Assembly: GCA_018263395.1 (NCBI GenBank)
Contig: JAANXF010000009.1
Location: 1 to 42,523, forward strand
DNA from: Methanonatronarchaeales archaeon
GTDB taxonomy: Archaea > Halobacteriota > Methanonatronarchaeia > JAANXF01
Length of the DNA stretch: 42,523 nucleotides
Direction: 5' to 3'
Part shown: positions 26,795 through 42,523 of the stretch, piece after piece
Numbering within the stretch: position 1 is the stretch's first letter
How the letters are laid out: each line of letters starts with the position of its first letter
Notes under the pieces: model-generated
What the model was told of the DNA's origin: nothing
Seen by the model: only the letters and a program-made list of their open reading frames with translations
Database searches by the model: none
Position numbers and translations under genes: made by a program

Positions 26795-28412
26795 TTAGTC
26801 GAATTGGTCAAGTTTTTGATTTTTGTTTCGCGGTAGATGTATCTCGTCTGGAAACCAGAAATGGATTTTTTCTGAATCGAGAAATTCTTTTTTAGCCTTT
26901 TTAGTATCCATATTTTCAGCTTCCCCCATGATTTCTTTTACTTTCATTCTAGGGACCCTTTTTCTTTCAAGGTCTTTCGAATAGAAAGAAAATGCGTGCC
27001 TTATACAAATGTTTTGTCTCCGTACGTTCTTTCTAAATTGTCTAACCTTGGCATCAGTCCAACCTTTATGGATGTGATAGTCCTCCTCTGTTTGTCCCTT
27101 TTTATAGGCTCGCGGGTTATAGTTATCGTATGTCTGATTTAAGGGCCTATACCTACAATCAGCTATCTGGGTCCCAAAATCAAAACACGCAATTCTTTTC
27201 TCTTCCATCTCCCTAAATGGAATCTCCCAGTTGTAAATCATGAAAATGAAGATCTCTTTTGTACTGTATCCTGCATTTTTAAGTATCTCTACTTGCTCTT
27301 TTATCTGACTCTTTTGGTCGATTCCCCAGTCCCAGGCTATACGTGGATATCTAAATCCTGCCTTTTTAATTTTTTTCCCAAGTTGGGGTTTTTTTGTCAA
27401 TACTCTCCCATCAAACCCACTTTGTGCTTCGCACCAAAGAATGTCGCCTCTATCCTTAAGTTCTATTAGCTCATCTAAGAGATGCTCAATATGGGGGTTC
27501 ATCAACATATTGTTATCATAAATTACTAATTTTCTTTTGCCTGGGACTATATTGTCTTTGATCTCTGATATATTTTTAAATTCGGGATTGATTTTCCATA
27601 CTCCACAAAAGTCGCATTCTCTCTTACAGCCCCTTGAAGTATGGATTATCTGATAATCGAGTTTGCCATTTTTTTCTTCTATTAGGTGGTATGCTGGTTT
27701 ATACTGTTCAGCTGGTTGATGGGTGCCTATATGGACTTTATCTATACCAGGTATCGTTTTGCAGTCCTCAGGCATTAATGACGCATAGACCCCTCCAGCT
27801 GTGATCTCGGCGGTAGAGAATAATTCGTTATAATGTTCAACTGCTTCGACTACGGCAGGTTTCCAGTATGTAAATAGGGTTGTTACAAGTATCTTGTCCG
27901 GTAGATACCAGTCCTCATCACGCTCATTCGCAATTTCTTCTTTACTTTTTTTTCCTCGAACTAATTTAACTTTGTTTCCCTTTGACTCATCTTTAAGTTG
28001 TTCTAAGCTATCTATTTCGTCTAACATATTTTTCGTGATAAAATTTTCTGAATTTTTTTGGGACCCGATGATCATTTCAACGTCTTGCGTGCTAAGTTTT
28101 GGAGATACTATCATCTGCATTTTGCCATCGTTTTCAATTAGCCCTTTATAGTGATTGTCGTAACTTTCCTGAAAATTTATTTCAGCGATTCCTGTCCTGT
28201 CCCCGACGACGAGAGGAGGATTATCATCTTAAAGAAGTTTCGTCAAACACTATAATTCCCTTTGAAGCTACTCCTAAACTTGTTGAGGAAAAAAAGCCTG
28301 CTATTCTACGGTAATTTTTGGTTTCTTGAAGGGTTGGGATGTAAAATTCTTTTAAAATATTCGTAGATTCAGAAGAATAGCTTCTTCTTAGACCTAATTC
28401 TTTGAAGGACAT
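26795..28412 (-). pseudogene. Chimeric gene: PLD-type nuclease/helicase head joined to B12-binding radical SAM, interrupted by a MITE
   Basis: Reading from 28412 down, the head (MSFKELGLRRSYSSES, then RIAGFFSSTSLGVASKGI) is the N-terminus of PLD-like domain proteins that precede defence-type helicases. A 104-bp MITE then breaks the frame. Removing it with one TA joins ...SKGI to KGLIENDGKMQMIVSPKL, the next conserved PLD segment. After about 45 more residues the chain changes into a B12-binding radical SAM protein lacking its first ~60 residues (GNKVKLVRG, LPDKILVTTLFTYW, GGVYASLMPEDC). Cluster motif GCKRECDFC has C165, C169 and C172, counting from ATG 28120. The 441-aa frame from 28120 could still be translated. 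Very AT-rich compared with flanks, so recently acquired. Confidence 0.75.
28149..28252 (+). mobile_element. MITE copy 1 (104 bp, TA target duplication)
   Basis: Imperfect terminal inverted repeats TAGTGATTGTCGTAACTTTC and (reverse complement of the right end) TAGTGTTTGACGAAACTTC, flanked by TA at 28147-28148 and 28253-28254. It is identical over its full 104 bp to the copy at 37842-37945. An internal hairpin CTGAAA...TTTCAG is present. There is no coding capacity. It lies inside the PLD-helicase head. Confidence 0.93.
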
Positions 28413-28440
28413 TGATTAATAGCGATATGGTGGACGTATC

Positions 28441-34758: not shown

Positions 34759-37700
34759 TGGAAGTGGTACCTCGCTAATTTCACGAGTTCGTGCGAGATG
34801 CGATCCATCTGGTCGAAGGAGAGGCCGCTGAAGTTGTCCAGCAGGTACTCCTTCACCTCTTTCCGCATCTCCTTCTGAACCTTGACCTTCCGCTTTCAGT
34901 CCACGACACGTTTCTCCCGGAGCCGGCTGACGAGGTCCTGAGCCGCTTCGGTCAGTTCCTTGCCGCTATATGTCGTGCGCTCCTCTGCAACCATCAAGGC
35001 CTCTCTGTCGGAGGAGCCGGTCATAGCTTCCTCAAGAGAATGGTAGAATGAAAGCTCCGTCGTGTCGTTCAGCCTAAGGCTTTGGGCCTGTGCCTCCCGG
35101 TGGCGGACCGCGTGGATCAGGTCCCGGTACTCCTCGATTATCTCCCGTTCCTCCATCCGCTTCTGCCTGTACTCCTCGATAAGCCTCTCGAGTTTCTCCT
35201 GGAGAGAGTCGTAGAACGCCGGGTCTTCATCGTACCGGACACTGATTTCGTGTTTGAGAGCGTTCTTCATCTCGCTCGCCCGAGCCTCGTCGCTTTCCAG
35301 GTGGTCGAGCTCCTCTTCGAAGTCTTCCTCGTCCATGATGGAGACGGGATCTTCATTGAGGATCTCGATGTCGGTCGCCGATAGGTGGTCCTCGATGAGC
35401 TTCCGAACCTTCTTTCCGCACCCGGTGAGGTCCATGGACTCGTCCCGGTACCTGTTCTTGGCGTGGGCGTAGACCTCCCCGAGGAACTTGAGGTCATCTT
35501 TATAAGGATTGGCGGCGGGGTCCGGCATGACGATGTCCATGAGCTTGGAGAACCGCTTGAAGGCCGTGTTGAACTTCAGGCGTTTCTCCTCGTCTTCTAA
35601 CTGCGTCACGTACTCCTCGACGCTCCTCTCCCCGGCATCGGAAAAGAACGACAGGGCCTTTTTGTGGGCCGCTTCGAGCTCGGGCTTGACGTCCTCCACC
35701 TCGGTCATTGCGTTCCGGACGTCCTCCTCGCTGAACTGTCTCAGGGCTTCTTGCAGGTCGTCTGAGACGCCGTAGTAGTCGATGATGAGCCCGTTCTTCT
35801 TCCCCTCGAAGGGACGGTTGACCCGGGCGATGGATTGGAGCAGGTTGTGCTCCTTGAGCGGCTTGTCGAGGTACATCACCTGCGCGATGGGCGCGTCGTA
35901 ACCGGTGAGAAGCATGTCACATACTACGACGATCTTCAGCGGATCTGTCTCGTCCTTAAACCGGTCCTTGATGCTCTGCTGCTCCTGATCGGACAGGGCG
36001 TACTTCTTCAGCTCCGGCGGGTCGTTGTGGTCGGCGGAAACCAGAACTGCTGATTCCATGTCGCCCTGATACTGGCTCAGTTCGTCGAGTTTCTCCTTGT
36101 ACCGGACTGCGGCCCTGCGGCTCGGCGTCACGACGAAGGCCTTGAAGGGCTCCGGGACGGTCTCCTCGTAGTGGTTTACGATGTCGAGCGCAACTTTCTG
36201 TATCCGGCTTGGGGCCTGGGCGAGGTCCTTCTCGGAGGCGTACCTCTTCTTGATCTCCCGCTTCTCCTCCTCCGACTTGTCGCTGAAGATGCGGTCGAAG
36301 AGTTCGTCGATGTCCCTCTCTTCGAGGTGGATGTCGGCGAGGCGTCCCTGGTAGTAGATGGGGACGGTGTTCCCGTCCTCGACGGACTGGTCAATGGTGT
36401 AGGTGTCGATGTAGTTCCCGAAGGTATGGCGGATGTTGCGTCGCTCCTTCTCTATCGGGGTTCCGGTGAAGGCGACGTAGTAGGCGTTGGGGAGGGCGGT
36501 ACGCATGTTGTTGGCGAGCTTCTTGTACTGGGTCCGGTGGGCCTCGTCCACCATGACGAACACGTCCTCCCGCTCGGAGAGAACAGGGAAATCGTCCTCC
36601 TCAGAGCCCCAATCCCCCTCTTCATCCTCTTCCCCATCTCGCTCCTGGAACTTCTGTATCGTCGTGGTGAAGGTCTGGCCCGGCGGCCCGGAGAGCTTCT
36701 GCTTTAGGTCCTCGATGCTCTCCGCCCTCTTCGGGTTCGGGAACCGCACTGCTGAAAGGTGGCGCTTATCTGTCTGTCCAGTGTCTTCCTGTCCGTCACG
36801 ACGAGGAGGGTCGGCGTTTCCCTGAGGCTCCGGAGCTTGAGGCCCAGGAAGAGCATGGTCAGGGACTTCCCGGAGCCCTGGGTGTGCCACACGACGCCAC
36901 CGTCCGCCGGGCCCTGCTCCCGGTTCCTGATGCGATCCAGGGTCTTCTGGACGGCGCGGTACTGCTGGTAGTACGCCACCTTCTTCACCGTGCCCTGCCC
37001 CTCCTCCGCGAATACGGTGAAGTTCCGGAGGACGTCCAGCATCCGCTCCTTCTCGAAGAGGGAGTAGATGAGCACGTCCTGCGCCGTGACGCGGTCGAAC
37101 CCGAGCCGCTCCCGGAGCCGCTCGGACTCCTCCGGCTCCCTCTCCTCGTCGGGGTACCTCCACGCCTGATACCGGTTCCCCGGCGCCTTGACCGCTCCGG
37201 CGACGTTGTCCTCCAGCTAGGTCCCGGCCACGACGTAGTTGTACCTGAAGAGCTTCTCCGCCCCCTCCCTCTCGTGTCCCCTGGCGTTCTGGTAACGCAT
37301 GAGCTGGTTCAGGGCCACGCTCCTGGGCTCCAGGTGCTTACGCGGGTTCTTGCACTCGATGACGCCGAGCGGCACCCCGTTGACGAAGGCGACGACGTCG
37401 GGCCTGATGGTCTCCTGCGGGCCCCTCACCTCGTACTGGTTCAGGACGAGGAACTCGTTGTTCTCCGGGTCCTCGTAGTCGATGAACCTGACGGTCTGGT
37501 TCCGCTTCCCCCTGCCGAGGTCCTGCTCGACGGAGCCGTGGCTCACGAGCTTCCGGTGAATCTCCTGATTCGCCCTGACGGTGTTCGGCTCCGCGACCCT
37601 CACGATTTCGGAGACGGCCCTCTCCAGGTTGTTCCGGTTTATCCACGGGTTAAGCCGCTTCACCGCCACCCTCAACCGGTCCCGCAGAACCACCTGGCTC

Positions 37701-37831
37701 GCCGTCTCCCGGGTGTCCACGTCCCCGGACCCGGGCCGCGGCCGCTCCACGTCGTGCACGTCCCACCCCAGCGCCTCGAAGGCGTCCAGGGCGCGGCGCT
37801 CGACAAGCTCGTACTCGTTGGCAGAGGACAC
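34755..37831 (-). pseudogene. hsdR: Type I restriction endonuclease subunit HsdR, broken
   Basis: The N-terminal nuclease domain (from ATG 37831) has RPDVVAFVNGVPLGVIECKNP, with the D...ExK site. At 37219-37217 an in-frame TAG follows VVAGT, and the frame continues LEDNVAGAVKAPGNRYQ. Walker A is WHTQGSGKSLTM. Near 36748 one base is missing (ATFQQCG to FPNPKRAESIEDLKQKL in another frame). Then DEAH (MVDEAHRTQYKKLA), TGTPIEKER and later helicase motifs follow. A TGA at 34898-34896 after REKRVVD is again in frame with the C-terminal helices KRKVKVQKEMRKEVKEYLL ending at 34755. Total length, with one base restored, is 1025 codons. No hsdM or hsdS is present. Probably an inactivated restriction gene, unless sequencing errors account for all three. 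Confidence 0.85.
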
Positions 37832-37841
37832 TTCTAACCTA

Positions 37842-37945
37842 TAGTGATTGTCGTAACTTTCCTGAAAATTTATTTCAGCGATTCCTGTCCTGTCCCCGAC
37901 GACGAGAGGAGGATTATCATCTTAAAGAAGTTTCGTCAAACACTA
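37842..37945 (+). mobile_element. MITE copy 2 (104 bp, TA target duplication)
   Basis: Identical to copy 1 over 104 bp and in the same orientation. TA duplications are at 37840-37841 and 37946-37947. It starts 10 bp upstream of the hsdR start codon, so it has either displaced the hsdR promoter or supplies a new one. Confidence 0.95.
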
Positions 37946-38004: not shown

Positions 38005-38253
38005 TCAGCGATTCCGGTCAATCCACCTGCAGAACTCGTCGAAGTCTCTGGCACTGGCCTGTTTGGCGATGCCTCGAAGGGTTCCTGTCCTGAGGGACCT
38101 GTGCCTGGGAACGGTGACCGTTCTCTTCTCCGAGCCGTCCGGGTGCTCCCACTTGAGAGTGTAGTGGTCGCCCTTCACACGGTCGATCCAGAAGTTGCCC
38201 CTGTTTACGAGTACCCTGATGACGTCGTCCCCGGAGAAGTCCCGGGTCGTCAT
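38005..38253 (-). CDS. hicA: HicA mRNA interferase toxin
   Basis: 82 aa, ATG start. Double-stranded-RNA-binding-like fold that cuts mRNA in translation-dependent fashion. The catalytic His is H30 in VKGDHYTLKWEHP, and the C-terminal half has the family pattern TVTVPRHRSLRTGTLRGIAKQA. It is downstream of hicB by 1 base, same strand. Confidence 0.93.
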   Translation of the reverse strand: MTTRDFSGDDVIRVLVNRGNFWIDRVKGDHYTLKWEHPDGSEKRTVTVPRHRSLRTGTLRGIAKQASARDFDEFCRWIDRNR

Positions 38254-38254
38254 T

Positions 38255-38515
38255 CTACTTCAGCACCTCGGGAAGGTTTCCCCGTCTCCTCCGGCTGTTG
38301 GCCGGATCGATCCCGAGGTCTTCGAGCTCCTCGGCGGTGGGTTCTCGCCCCTCTCCGCCGTGTGCCTCGAGGGCTTCTTGAAGGTTCTCAACGGCCTCCT
38401 GGGGCGTGGCCCCCTGACTGACCACGTCGGTCTCCGTGTCGGCGGCGACCCACGTGTCGTCCTCCTTCCAAAGCCTGTAGGGCTTCTCCGCCCTTGGGGC
38501 CTTCAGCTCGGGCAT
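38255..38515 (-). CDS. hicB: HicB antitoxin
   Basis: 86 aa, ATG start. It has the partial RNase H-like fold of HicB: KPYRLWKEDDTWVAADTETDVVSQGATPQEAVENLQEALEAH is the usual core (about 11-52, catalytic residues not expected). It neutralises HicA and often represses the operon. The C-terminus is short and basic, with no clear HTH. Gene order here is antitoxin first. Confidence 0.9.
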   Translation of the reverse strand: MPELKAPRAEKPYRLWKEDDTWVAADTETDVVSQGATPQEAVENLQEALEAHGGEGREPTAEELEDLGIDPANSRRRRGNLPEVLK

Positions 38516-38596: not shown

Positions 38597-39511
38597 TTAC
38601 GCCAGCGTCGCCTGATAATTCCCCGAAAAGTGCCTATCGAGGTCTTCCAAGTACTCCCCTAACTCCTCCGTGCTTCGGAACAGGTCTGCCCCCTTTCTCT
38701 CGATCTCCTTGGGAGAGCACTCCCCCACGCCGTCAGGTGCGTACATGAAAACCGGCCTCCCCTCTCTAAGCGCTATCTCTGCTTGGTGAACTGTTCCCCC
38801 ATCATGCCTCGACGCGACGACTATAACGGCCCTGGACACGCCTGAAGTTATACGGTTCCTCTCCAGGAACCTCCACCTGCCGAAGGCCGTGTCCCTGCTG
38901 ACCTCAGACAGCAGTGCACCGTGCTCCGTAATTCTCTCCGCCAGCCCCTCGTTGGACGACGGATAGACCTTCTCGATGTGTCCCGGGAGAGAGGCGACGG
39001 TGTAGCCACCGGCGTCCATAGCGCCCTCATGGGCTTTTTCGTCGATTCCCTTGGCGAGGCCGCTCACCACCAGAAAGCCTTTCTTCACCAGGAACTCTCC
39101 TACCTCGTACGCGAAATCCTTCCTATCTTCCGGCGAGCTCCGGCTTCCGACGACGGCCACTCCGTCCATCGAAACGGGATACTCACCACGCACGTAGAGG
39201 CCCAGTGGCGGGTCCTCTATCTTCGCCAAAAGTCCGGGGTACTCCTCGCCGTAGAACGGGGCGAACTTGACCCCCTTCTCACTAAGGCGGTCCAGCTCGG
39301 ATACGTACCAGTCCAGATCCAGACCCTGGAGTGCACCGACCAGCTTATCCACCACCTTCGGGTCGAAATCCATCTCCCCGACTTTTCGAATCACGTCCTC
39401 CACACCGTCATCCTGGGAGACCTGGAGATTCCTGAACAGGTCGAGATAAACCCGCTTCTTGAACTTCTTGGAATCGTTCATGGCGGCGAGGAGTACGTTC
39501 TTCGTGATCAT
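38597..39511 (-). CDS. dprA: DprA/Smf-like SLOG-fold protein
   Basis: 304 aa, ATG start. In bacteria DprA loads RecA on incoming single-stranded DNA. The Rossmann (SLOG) domain is clear: VAVVGSRSSPEDR (GSR at 122-124), LVVSGLAKGIDEKAHEGAM (150-168), ALLSEV, ERNRITSGVSRAVIVVAS (217-234) and HQAEIALREGRPVF. The N-terminus (1-115) is helical with the EYPGLLAKIEDPPLGLYVRG lead-in. No C-terminal winged helix is evident. It overlaps the upstream PRTase gene by 4 bases. Outside competence loci, SLOG proteins are often immune nucleotide sensors. Confidence 0.88.
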   Translation of the reverse strand: MITKNVLLAAMNDSKKFKKRVYLDLFRNLQVSQDDGVEDVIRKVGEMDFDPKVVDKLVGALQGLDLDWYVSELDRLSEKGVKFAPFYGEEYPGLLAKIEDPPLGLYVRGEYPVSMDGVAVVGSRSSPEDRKDFAYEVGEFLVKKGFLVVSGLAKGIDEKAHEGAMDAGGYTVASLPGHIEKVYPSSNEGLAERITEHGALLSEVSRDTAFGRWRFLERNRITSGVSRAVIVVASRHDGGTVHQAEIALREGRPVFMYAPDGVGECSPKEIERKGADLFRSTEELGEYLEDLDRHFSGNYQATLA

Positions 39512-40242
39512 CCCTCGTCCTCTCCCTCGGTCTCTTCTAGAATGCCGGCAAACTCGAAATGGCTCAGGCTCCCGTCCCTCCCAAGCACGAGACCTATCAC
39601 GGTACCAGCCCCTTTCTCCCTGAGAGCTTTTGCTGAATTGTACATCGTCGCTCCCGTTGTGTAGACATCGTCAATGACAATTACGTCCTCGCCATTTAGG
39701 TCTCTGGTGCACCGAATCTTATCTTCTACGTTCTCAATCCGGTCCCCTTTATCAGATAACTCTTTCTGGGAAGAGTAGTCCTCGCTCCTTTCAAGAATGG
39801 GTCGATATGGTAACTCGACATCTTGGGAGAGGATCTTCAGAAGCTCGTCCATCTGGTCCCGCTCTCCGTCTCCAGAGGGAGGCGCGACCATTAGCTCGTA
39901 GTTCTGAAGCTCTGGATACTTCTCAGCGATACAGTGCTCTAGTATCTCCGAAAGGCCCTCACCATACTCCGGGTTTCTCTTGAACTCTTTGATCTCTTTT
40001 GAAAGGTTATGCCCCCTGGACTTCTTGATGTAGATCGATGCAGCATAGACTTTCGAAAGATTGTATCCATCGACACGCGTATCCCCCTCGTAACAGGCAT
40101 AACAGAGCCCATGACCGGCGTACTCCTCCTGGATAGGATCGGCACACCGCTTGCAGAACGGCTCTTCCAGTAGCAGAAAGACCTCCCCGTCGCTCCTCTC
40201 AAAGACTTCGAATCGGTCTTTTACTGGTTTATAGGAGGTCAT
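39508..40242 (-). CDS. ComF-like phosphoribosyltransferase
   Basis: 244 aa, ATG start. An N-terminal zinc ribbon (C30, C33, C47, C50 in CKRCADP...CYACY) is followed by a type I phosphoribosyltransferase domain whose PRPP loop is VIVIDDVYTTGAT (187-199). This is the ComF domain plan. It is co-directional and overlapping (ATGA) with dprA. The product composition is lower in GC than core genes. The substrate base is unknown. In bacteria ComF helps DNA uptake; in this context a nucleotide-modifying defence role is equally possible. Confidence 0.85.
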   Translation of the reverse strand: MTSYKPVKDRFEVFERSDGEVFLLLEEPFCKRCADPIQEEYAGHGLCYACYEGDTRVDGYNLSKVYAASIYIKKSRGHNLSKEIKEFKRNPEYGEGLSEILEHCIAEKYPELQNYELMVAPPSGDGERDQMDELLKILSQDVELPYRPILERSEDYSSQKELSDKGDRIENVEDKIRCTRDLNGEDVIVIDDVYTTGATMYNSAKALREKGAGTVIGLVLGRDGSLSHFEFAGILEETEGEDEG

Positions 40243-40393: not shown

Positions 40394-41149
40394 ATGAATC
40401 CCCTAGACCGGGTCGGAGAGTGGATATTTTATAAGCTTGGCCTTGGGTCTGAGGAATTTATAGAAATAAGGGACGACTTCCTGTCTCTTTTTGAGACAGC
40501 TTTGGGTATCCCAGATATCGAAAAGAGAATGGCGTTTTCAATAAGCGAACTTCAAAAGGGAGCGACCAAGTGTTATTACTCAGCCCCTGACTATGATCCC
40601 CATGAATCTGTTTTTTCTATTTGGGACACCTTCCAGATATTACAATTTTTCTTAAAACTTCTAAGATTTCTCTTCCCGCTTTTATTGGTTGGTGCACTCG
40701 TCTCGGGATTCAGCCTTGGAGGAATGCCGTGGGCTGTGGGGCTTTTCGCTCCATTTGCCATCCTGACGCTGTTGTTCGAGGTCTATATCTACCATTTGAA
40801 GGCAGATACGTGGTTTTATCAACAGATGAACGACGAACTCAGAATATCGCCAAAAGAGATCAATAACACTCGGAGGAGAACGAAACTCGTCTCTTATTAC
40901 GTCTGGAACTGTGCTGCTTTACACGATCCAAAGATGATGCCCACACTGGGCTTTATGTACATCATCCAGCTTTTAAGCGACGGATTCTACAACAGGATTA
41001 TGGGAAACCTTGAAACGTATATCGAGGATTTATATGAAAAATCCCAGTCTGACAAATCGGTATTTATAGTGATTGTCATAACTTTCTTTATATGTTCTCT
41101 CAGCGATTCTGCCCTATCCCCGAAGACGAGAAGTAAATCTGAATATTAA
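40394..41149 (+). CDS. Two-helix membrane protein with MITE-derived C-terminus
   Basis: 251 aa as it stands, ATG start. Cytoplasmic N-terminal region (1-75), two transmembrane helices (about 78-105 and 108-133) and a ~105-residue C-terminal cytoplasmic domain (NNTRRRTKLVSYYVWNC, GFMYIIQLLSDGFYNRIMGN). No family was recognised. The last ~28 codons, after SQSDKSVF, come from the MITE at 41067. Removing it with one TA restores SVFSMYWGMLRGGRF and a stop near 41210. Low-GC gene, divergent from the PRTase-DprA pair, and possibly their membrane partner. Confidence 0.7.
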   Translation: MNPLDRVGEWIFYKLGLGSEEFIEIRDDFLSLFETALGIPDIEKRMAFSISELQKGATKCYYSAPDYDPHESVFSIWDTFQILQFFLKLLRFLFPLLLVGALVSGFSLGGMPWAVGLFAPFAILTLLFEVYIYHLKADTWFYQQMNDELRISPKEINNTRRRTKLVSYYVWNCAALHDPKMMPTLGFMYIIQLLSDGFYNRIMGNLETYIEDLYEKSQSDKSVFIVIVITFFICSLSDSALSPKTRSKSEY

Positions 41150-41169
41150 AGAAGTTTCGTCAACCACTA
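41067..41169 (+). mobile_element. MITE copy 3 (103 bp, diverged, TA target duplication)
   Basis: Begins TAGTGATTGTCATAACTTTC and ends GAAGTTTCGTCAACCACTA, flanked by TA at 41065-41066 and 41170-41171. Ends are close to those of copies 1 and 2, while the middle differs, so it is an older or separate lineage. It supplies the C-terminal codons of the membrane protein. Confidence 0.88.
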
Positions 41170-42394: not shown

Positions 42395-42397
42395 ATA

Positions 42398-42523
42398 TAG
42401 TTATTGACGTAACTTATTTATGGTTTGCTCTTGAAGATGGTTTATGCCGAGAGACTACGTCACCGAAACCAAAAAATGGATTTCTAAAAAAGAGTTGGTA
42501 AACAAAATTAAGAAGAAAAGAAT
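42398..42523 (+). mobile_element. Right partial copy of the same transposon
   Basis: Exact reverse complement of 1-126. Element end TAGTTATTGACGTAACTTA is preceded by TA (42396-42397). A TTATTTATGG element ahead of ATG 42444 could be the transposase promoter. The rest of the element lies outside the window. Confidence 0.75.
42444..42523 (+). CDS. Transposase N-terminus, partial (second copy)
   Basis: ATG at 42444; 26 codons then the right edge of the window. The sequence is identical to the product of 80-1 on the minus strand, with a WISKKELVNKIKKKR segment as in the start of IS630-type transposases. The catalytic domain is not visible. Confidence 0.55.
   Translation, partial: MPRDYVTETKKWISKKELVNKIKKKR

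Follow-up and report, generated by a model that had tools for sequence, protein, structure and literature searches.

A TA-flanked MITE splits a putative pbeA::radical-SAM chimera in a Methanonatronarchaeales archaeon

PbeABCD together with DndCDEA has been described as an archaeal antiviral system that is linked to phosphorothioation (Xiong 2019, PMC6459918), and its component PbeA has been interpreted as a fusion of an HKD nuclease with an SF2 helicase (PMC10853773). Here, a pbeA fragment is described that is found on a contig of a Methanonatronarchaeales archaeon, and the whole stretch of 42,523 nucleotides that was analyzed is called the window below. The fragment is encoded on the minus strand, it is interrupted by a MITE of 104 bp (28149-28252), and it is followed in frame by a gene for a B12-binding/radical-SAM (rSAM) protein. 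As judged from the sequence, the gene is a PbeA::radical-SAM chimera that was split by the MITE. The insertion of a MITE is in itself a known kind of event, and the chimera and the genomic association of the rSAM family are the parts to follow.

Excision of the element and identity of the restored frame

From its native ATG at 28412 the minus strand reads MSFKELGLRRSYSSESTNILKEFYIPTLQETKNYRRIAGFFSSTSLGVASKGI and enters the element, and the frame ends at a stop inside the MITE after 62 residues (28224-28412). The segment KGLIENDGKMQMIVSPKL picks up beyond the element in a different frame. The initial annotation had proposed that removal of the MITE restores the reading frame exactly, and this was confirmed. 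Removal of 106 bp, i.e., the element and one TA, resulted in a single open frame of 504 codons on the minus strand, in which MSFKELG...VASKGI continues into KGLIENDGKMQMIVSPKL, while no single open frame was obtained when 104 bp or 108 bp were deleted. The further proposal that the insertion site is defined to the base was correct for the excision product, whereas it did not apply to the element's register. Since TA also forms the ends of the MITE (TATAGTG...CACTATA), three choices of the boundaries, i.e., deletion of 28147-28252, 28148-28253 or 28149-28254, lead to the same product. The excision product is unique, whereas the element could be placed up to two bases differently. This ambiguity applies to the left TA copy at 28147-28148; the right copy is found at 28253-28254.

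Residues 2-103 of the joined protein matched positions 1-102 of the PADLOC profile for PbeA (PDLC02707, E=6e-30), and the match crossed the joint with equal lengths and without a gap. Based on the profile and on homologues, pbeA codons 1 to about 53 were assigned to 28255-28412 and codons about 54 to about 106 to 27986-28146, both on the minus strand. With a profile of six homologues, from which the window was excluded, the exact joint scored 132.6 bits, compared with 121.6-126.9 bits when the joint was lengthened or shortened by one or two residues, and with 74.2 and 44.3 bits for the two native halves alone. The generic PLD_Helicase family was tried as well and matched far more weakly than PbeA (1e-5), and Pfam yielded nothing credible for the joined N-terminus, the UDG inhibitor P56 being under the cut-off with an E value of 0.006.

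Uninterrupted copies were sought, and three archaeal homologues were found that read through the site, with 48% (G051), 38% (G012) and 42% (G041) identity. The homologues that share the N-terminus indeed go on with the KGLIENDGKMQMIVSPKL segment (e.g., ARGIKGLLKNNGKMKLIAG and ARGVTGLIRNDGKMRIIVSPK). All three loci contain other pbe genes, and two of the three contain dnd genes. The gene content is dndC, dndD, dndA, pbeA and pbeC in locus L058 and pbeA, pbeC, pbeD and a dndA-like gene in L059, while L057 carries pbeA and pbeC together with a small ORF. An empty site was not found in a close relative, the nearest genomes compared belonging only to the same class.

The initial annotation had also stated that the 441-aa frame starting at 28120 does not have a natural gene start. 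This was upheld, because the methionine at 28120 corresponds to PbeA residue 63 and is, thus, not the ancestral start. In addition, the joined sequence had been viewed as the natural continuation of the N-terminus of a PLD-type defence helicase. The continuation is real and the family is PbeA, but the 441-aa frame does not encode a helicase: from about residue 46 onward its product is a radical-SAM protein, and, therefore, removal of the MITE would not yield a working PbeA. The HKD/PLD catalytic region and the SF2 helicase domains are absent, and after about 106 residues the joined frame turns into radical SAM, which identifies the PbeA part as a fragment and not a functional PbeA. Neither PbeC nor DndC was detected in the assembly, which is 78% complete and was searched without a positive control, and no PbeA relatives were found in viral contigs.

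The MITE, its copies and a candidate mover

The element, to which no strand was assigned, has imperfect terminal inverted repeats of 21 nt (28146-28166 and 28235-28255, 86% complementary) and no coding capacity. Nine copies are present in the genome, mostly with unrelated flanks, five of which have an identity of 96-100% to the one in pbeA and four of 80%; two of the latter four carry extra internal sequence. Two further copies are contained in the window, one of the same MITE (37842-37945), which lies upstream of an hsdR gene with a broken reading frame, and one of the diverged 80% subfamily (41067-41169). Short and non-coding, with terminal inverted repeats, a duplicated TA and several copies at different places, the element has the features of a MITE. 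It was not found in 60 relatives, nor was its end pattern found in viral contigs. All copies start with TATAGTG, and all but one finish with CACTATA. The exception, at C15:6295, finishes with CACTATG and has its left flank in common with the copy at C15:59. The two respective regions of the genome (C15:1-167 and C15:6237-6402; G000, L060) thus hold MITE copies with identical left and different right flanks, one of them without the terminal TA, and the shared flank may be due to recombination or to an assembly effect.

Two of the other copies gave results that were analogous to those described above. Excision of the copy at C14:40378 (L007) together with one TA restored a metallophosphatase-like gene of 486 codons, and the same operation at C9:85679 (L008) restored an NTPase-like gene of 895 codons. 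Also in these cases the unexcised frames are interrupted by stops that lie within the element. In all three excision cases the frame was restored with exactly one TA kept, and the two additional genes independently support TA as the target, as the initial annotation had proposed for the interrupted pbeA. They also bear on the reading that the inverted-repeat element is a regulatory or RNA feature and not transposable. The element indeed folds better than shuffled sequences (z -3.45 as DNA), but it lacks a match in Rfam, its nine copies lie in mostly unrelated surroundings and, with one exception, are bounded by TA on both sides, and its excision restores three different genes. A regulatory or RNA feature is, therefore, extremely improbable. 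At the level of single bases, the element is a clear example of the disruption of an archaeal antiviral gene by a TA-targeting MITE, and two further excisions in this genome serve as replicates.

A second set of inverted-repeat ends, TATAGTTATTGACGTAACTT / TATAGTTATTGACATTACTC, is found at the termini of many contigs, and both termini of the window are among them. At 42396-42523 on the plus strand lies a left end that carries a related inverted repeat and in which a transposase frame begins; here, the contig ends inside the element. The left end of another copy is located at the opposite contig end (1-128, minus strand). The ends open and close a protein frame, which begins with MPRDYVTETKKWISKKELVNKIKKKR... 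and finishes with ...LQQFKQTIKKLFEKYSKRKTFAQSWIKKFWTQIIKE, and they probably belong to one IS630-type element. The tail of the frame showed a weak alignment (E 0.1-0.8) with the C-terminal end of IS630 transposases from haloarchaea; all eight matching records are haloarchaeal plasmids, and seven of them are annotated as IS630 there. A DNA search for the left end in plasmids yielded no match. The full transposase is absent from the assembly, and as its interior is missing, a DDE_3 transposase domain was accordingly not found in this genome. Such a loss of the interior is expected if many identical copies broke the assembly. The resident IS630-type element may be the one that moves the MITE in trans.

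The window contains additional putative defence genes. The gene for HsdR, a type I restriction subunit, is spread over several frames at 34896-37831 and is apparently a pseudogene; its first frame is preceded by a MITE copy at a distance of about 9 bp. A DprA-like gene and a phosphoribosyltransferase gene at 38597-40242 match the models for ShosA/ShosT (and PsyrA/PsyrT) and are likely to form a defence pair of the toxin-antitoxin type. The protein encoded at 41206-42090 matches the candidate defence family PDC-S18 (E=1.7e-136). Two small adjacent genes at 38005-38515 are HicA/HicB-like by eye, and they had no PADLOC match.

The joint between pbeA and the radical-SAM gene

Past the element the frame remains PbeA for about 50 codons and then encodes the rSAM protein (26795-27985, minus strand). 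The rSAM relatives matched the 441-aa frame only from residue 46-47 onward, and the rSAM part of the window starts at position 34 of the 419 positions of the family profile, while full-length homologues have the missing N-terminus. Thus, about 34 N-terminal residues of the rSAM protein are missing, and about 106 PbeA residues are found in their place. The CxxxCxxC motif is present as CKRECDFC, with cysteines that are invariant in the alignment, and the match to Pfam Radical_SAM has an E value of 2.4e-4, which is under the curated cut-off score.

Alternatively, the MITE could have interrupted a genuine, functional two-domain gene that comprises the N-terminus of PbeA and the radical-SAM part. 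The length of the open joined frame, the retained cysteine motif and an rSAM part without a stop are compatible with this view. However, the PbeA head was found in none of the rSAM relatives, the PbeA homologues run on into the helicase, and the rSAM part lacks its conserved N-terminal stretch. Hence, a genuine two-domain gene is considered unlikely. An even lower probability is assigned to an assembly artefact, in which two genes were wrongly joined in the metagenome assembly. The assembly is fragmented, and its contigs break at IS copies, but the joint lies inside the contig, it is in frame, the base composition is similar on either side, no long repeat is found at the joint, and the two kinds of genes share neighbourhoods elsewhere.

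The preferred reading is a chimera of fragments of two genes. The chimera is contained in an A+T-rich island (26795-28440) with 37% G+C, compared with 62% G+C in the window, which suggests that it was acquired. DrmB and DrmE were not found in this genome, and, thus, an origin of the island from a DISARM system is not demonstrated. A short repeat, TTCCCTTTGA, occurs once close to the MITE (28256-28265) and once close to the PbeA/rSAM joint (27976-27985); it was considered as a trace of recombination, but was judged to be chance, because both copies encode Ser-Lys-Gly.

One archaeal locus (L146, G333) contains on one strand and in this order pbeA, pbeC, an ORF of 139 aa, a gene for an ATPase of the GHKL type (assigned by eye) and an rSAM gene. 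This gene order makes an internal deletion in such an operon the likely origin of the chimera. The ancestral operon is deduced by analogy, because the rSAM protein of this locus comes from a more remote branch than that of the window (197 bits, profile positions 1-281), and the closest relatives are mostly found in DISARM operons. The following course of events is proposed. An A+T-rich antiviral operon of the pbeA-pbeC-...-rSAM kind was probably acquired horizontally. An internal deletion would then have removed the middle of the operon and fused the first about 106 pbeA codons in frame to the rSAM gene without its first about 34 codons. Possibly later, the MITE, putatively mobilized in trans by a TA-targeting transposase of the IS630 type, entered the PbeA part, and the net gain of 106 bp causes the frameshift and the stop after 62 residues. 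We regard this account as a whole as highly probable.

The radical-SAM family beside archaeal antiviral systems

The genomic neighbourhood of the rSAM family was analyzed at 25 loci, 23 of which are from the phylum (the other two are L025 and L026); they include, with the gene in the window, L133, L135, L137-L144, L146, L148, L150-L152, L155 and L157. DISARM or PbeAC genes were found beside the rSAM gene at 13 of the 25 loci, and several of the other 12 loci are cut off by contig ends. DISARM-type genes adjoin or are near the rSAM gene in ten cases (G155, G229, G342, G287, G256, G232, G086, G285, G079 and L026), and PbeA with PbeC is near in three cases (G333, G182 and G337). In four genomes (G155, G229, G342 and G285) the rSAM gene follows a DrmE-like gene at a distance of about 100 bp or less, and in G086 it abuts DrmA. 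As far as tested, PADLOC confirmed DrmA, DrmB and DrmC as neighbours in G155, G342 and G229. The protein of G229 matched DrmE weakly (1e-8), and the large genes of G155 and G342, which had no PADLOC match, are DrmE-like by homology to it. A methyltransferase was not evident beside these operons when the ORFs were read by eye; L026 carries two methyltransferases. At six loci (L148, L149, L151, L152, L155 and L157) a protein of about 475 aa with a zinc-ribbon-like N-terminus is encoded directly beside the rSAM gene.

The two rSAM proteins that were tested had no match among the PADLOC models, rSAM relatives were not found in viral contigs, and the literature searched contained no report of an association of the family with DISARM or PbeABCD. 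These neighbourhoods raise the possibility, to which we give an even chance, that a B12-type rSAM family, hitherto unrecognised, is a regular component of two types of archaeal antiviral systems. The family is found directly next to DrmE or DrmA in operons of the DISARM type, in which no adjacent methyltransferase is evident, and near pbeA-pbeC elsewhere. Its members could modify DNA, or a different target, in replacement of the DISARM methyltransferase. The association, deduced from gene order, is a lead and not a demonstrated function. If the rSAM protein should be a working component, DISARM and PbeAC systems may use a modification chemistry that has not yet been described for them.

Taken together, the locus resembles three known systems in part. 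Like TA-targeting MITEs moved by IS630, the element has terminal inverted repeats, a flanking TA, no ORF, near-identical copies and a longer related element in the genome. In this case, the repeats at the MITE ends (TATAGTGATTGTCGTAACTT / TATAGTGTTTGACGAAACTT) resemble those of the resident IS630-type element (18/20 and 15/20) without being identical to them. Compared with PbeA of DndCDEA-PbeABCD, the N-terminal about 106 residues align and are ungapped at the excised joint, whereas the HKD motif region, the helicase, PbeC and the Dnd genes are lacking in the window, which has only a fragment. Compared with the B12-binding/radical-SAM proteins beside DISARM-type and PbeAC-type genes, the copy of the window is 46% and 40% identical to two relatives and has the conserved CxxxCxxC motif, but it lacks the first about 34 residues and the operon partners. 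As in the locus with the one-strand gene order (L146), it is located downstream of pbeA on the same strand.
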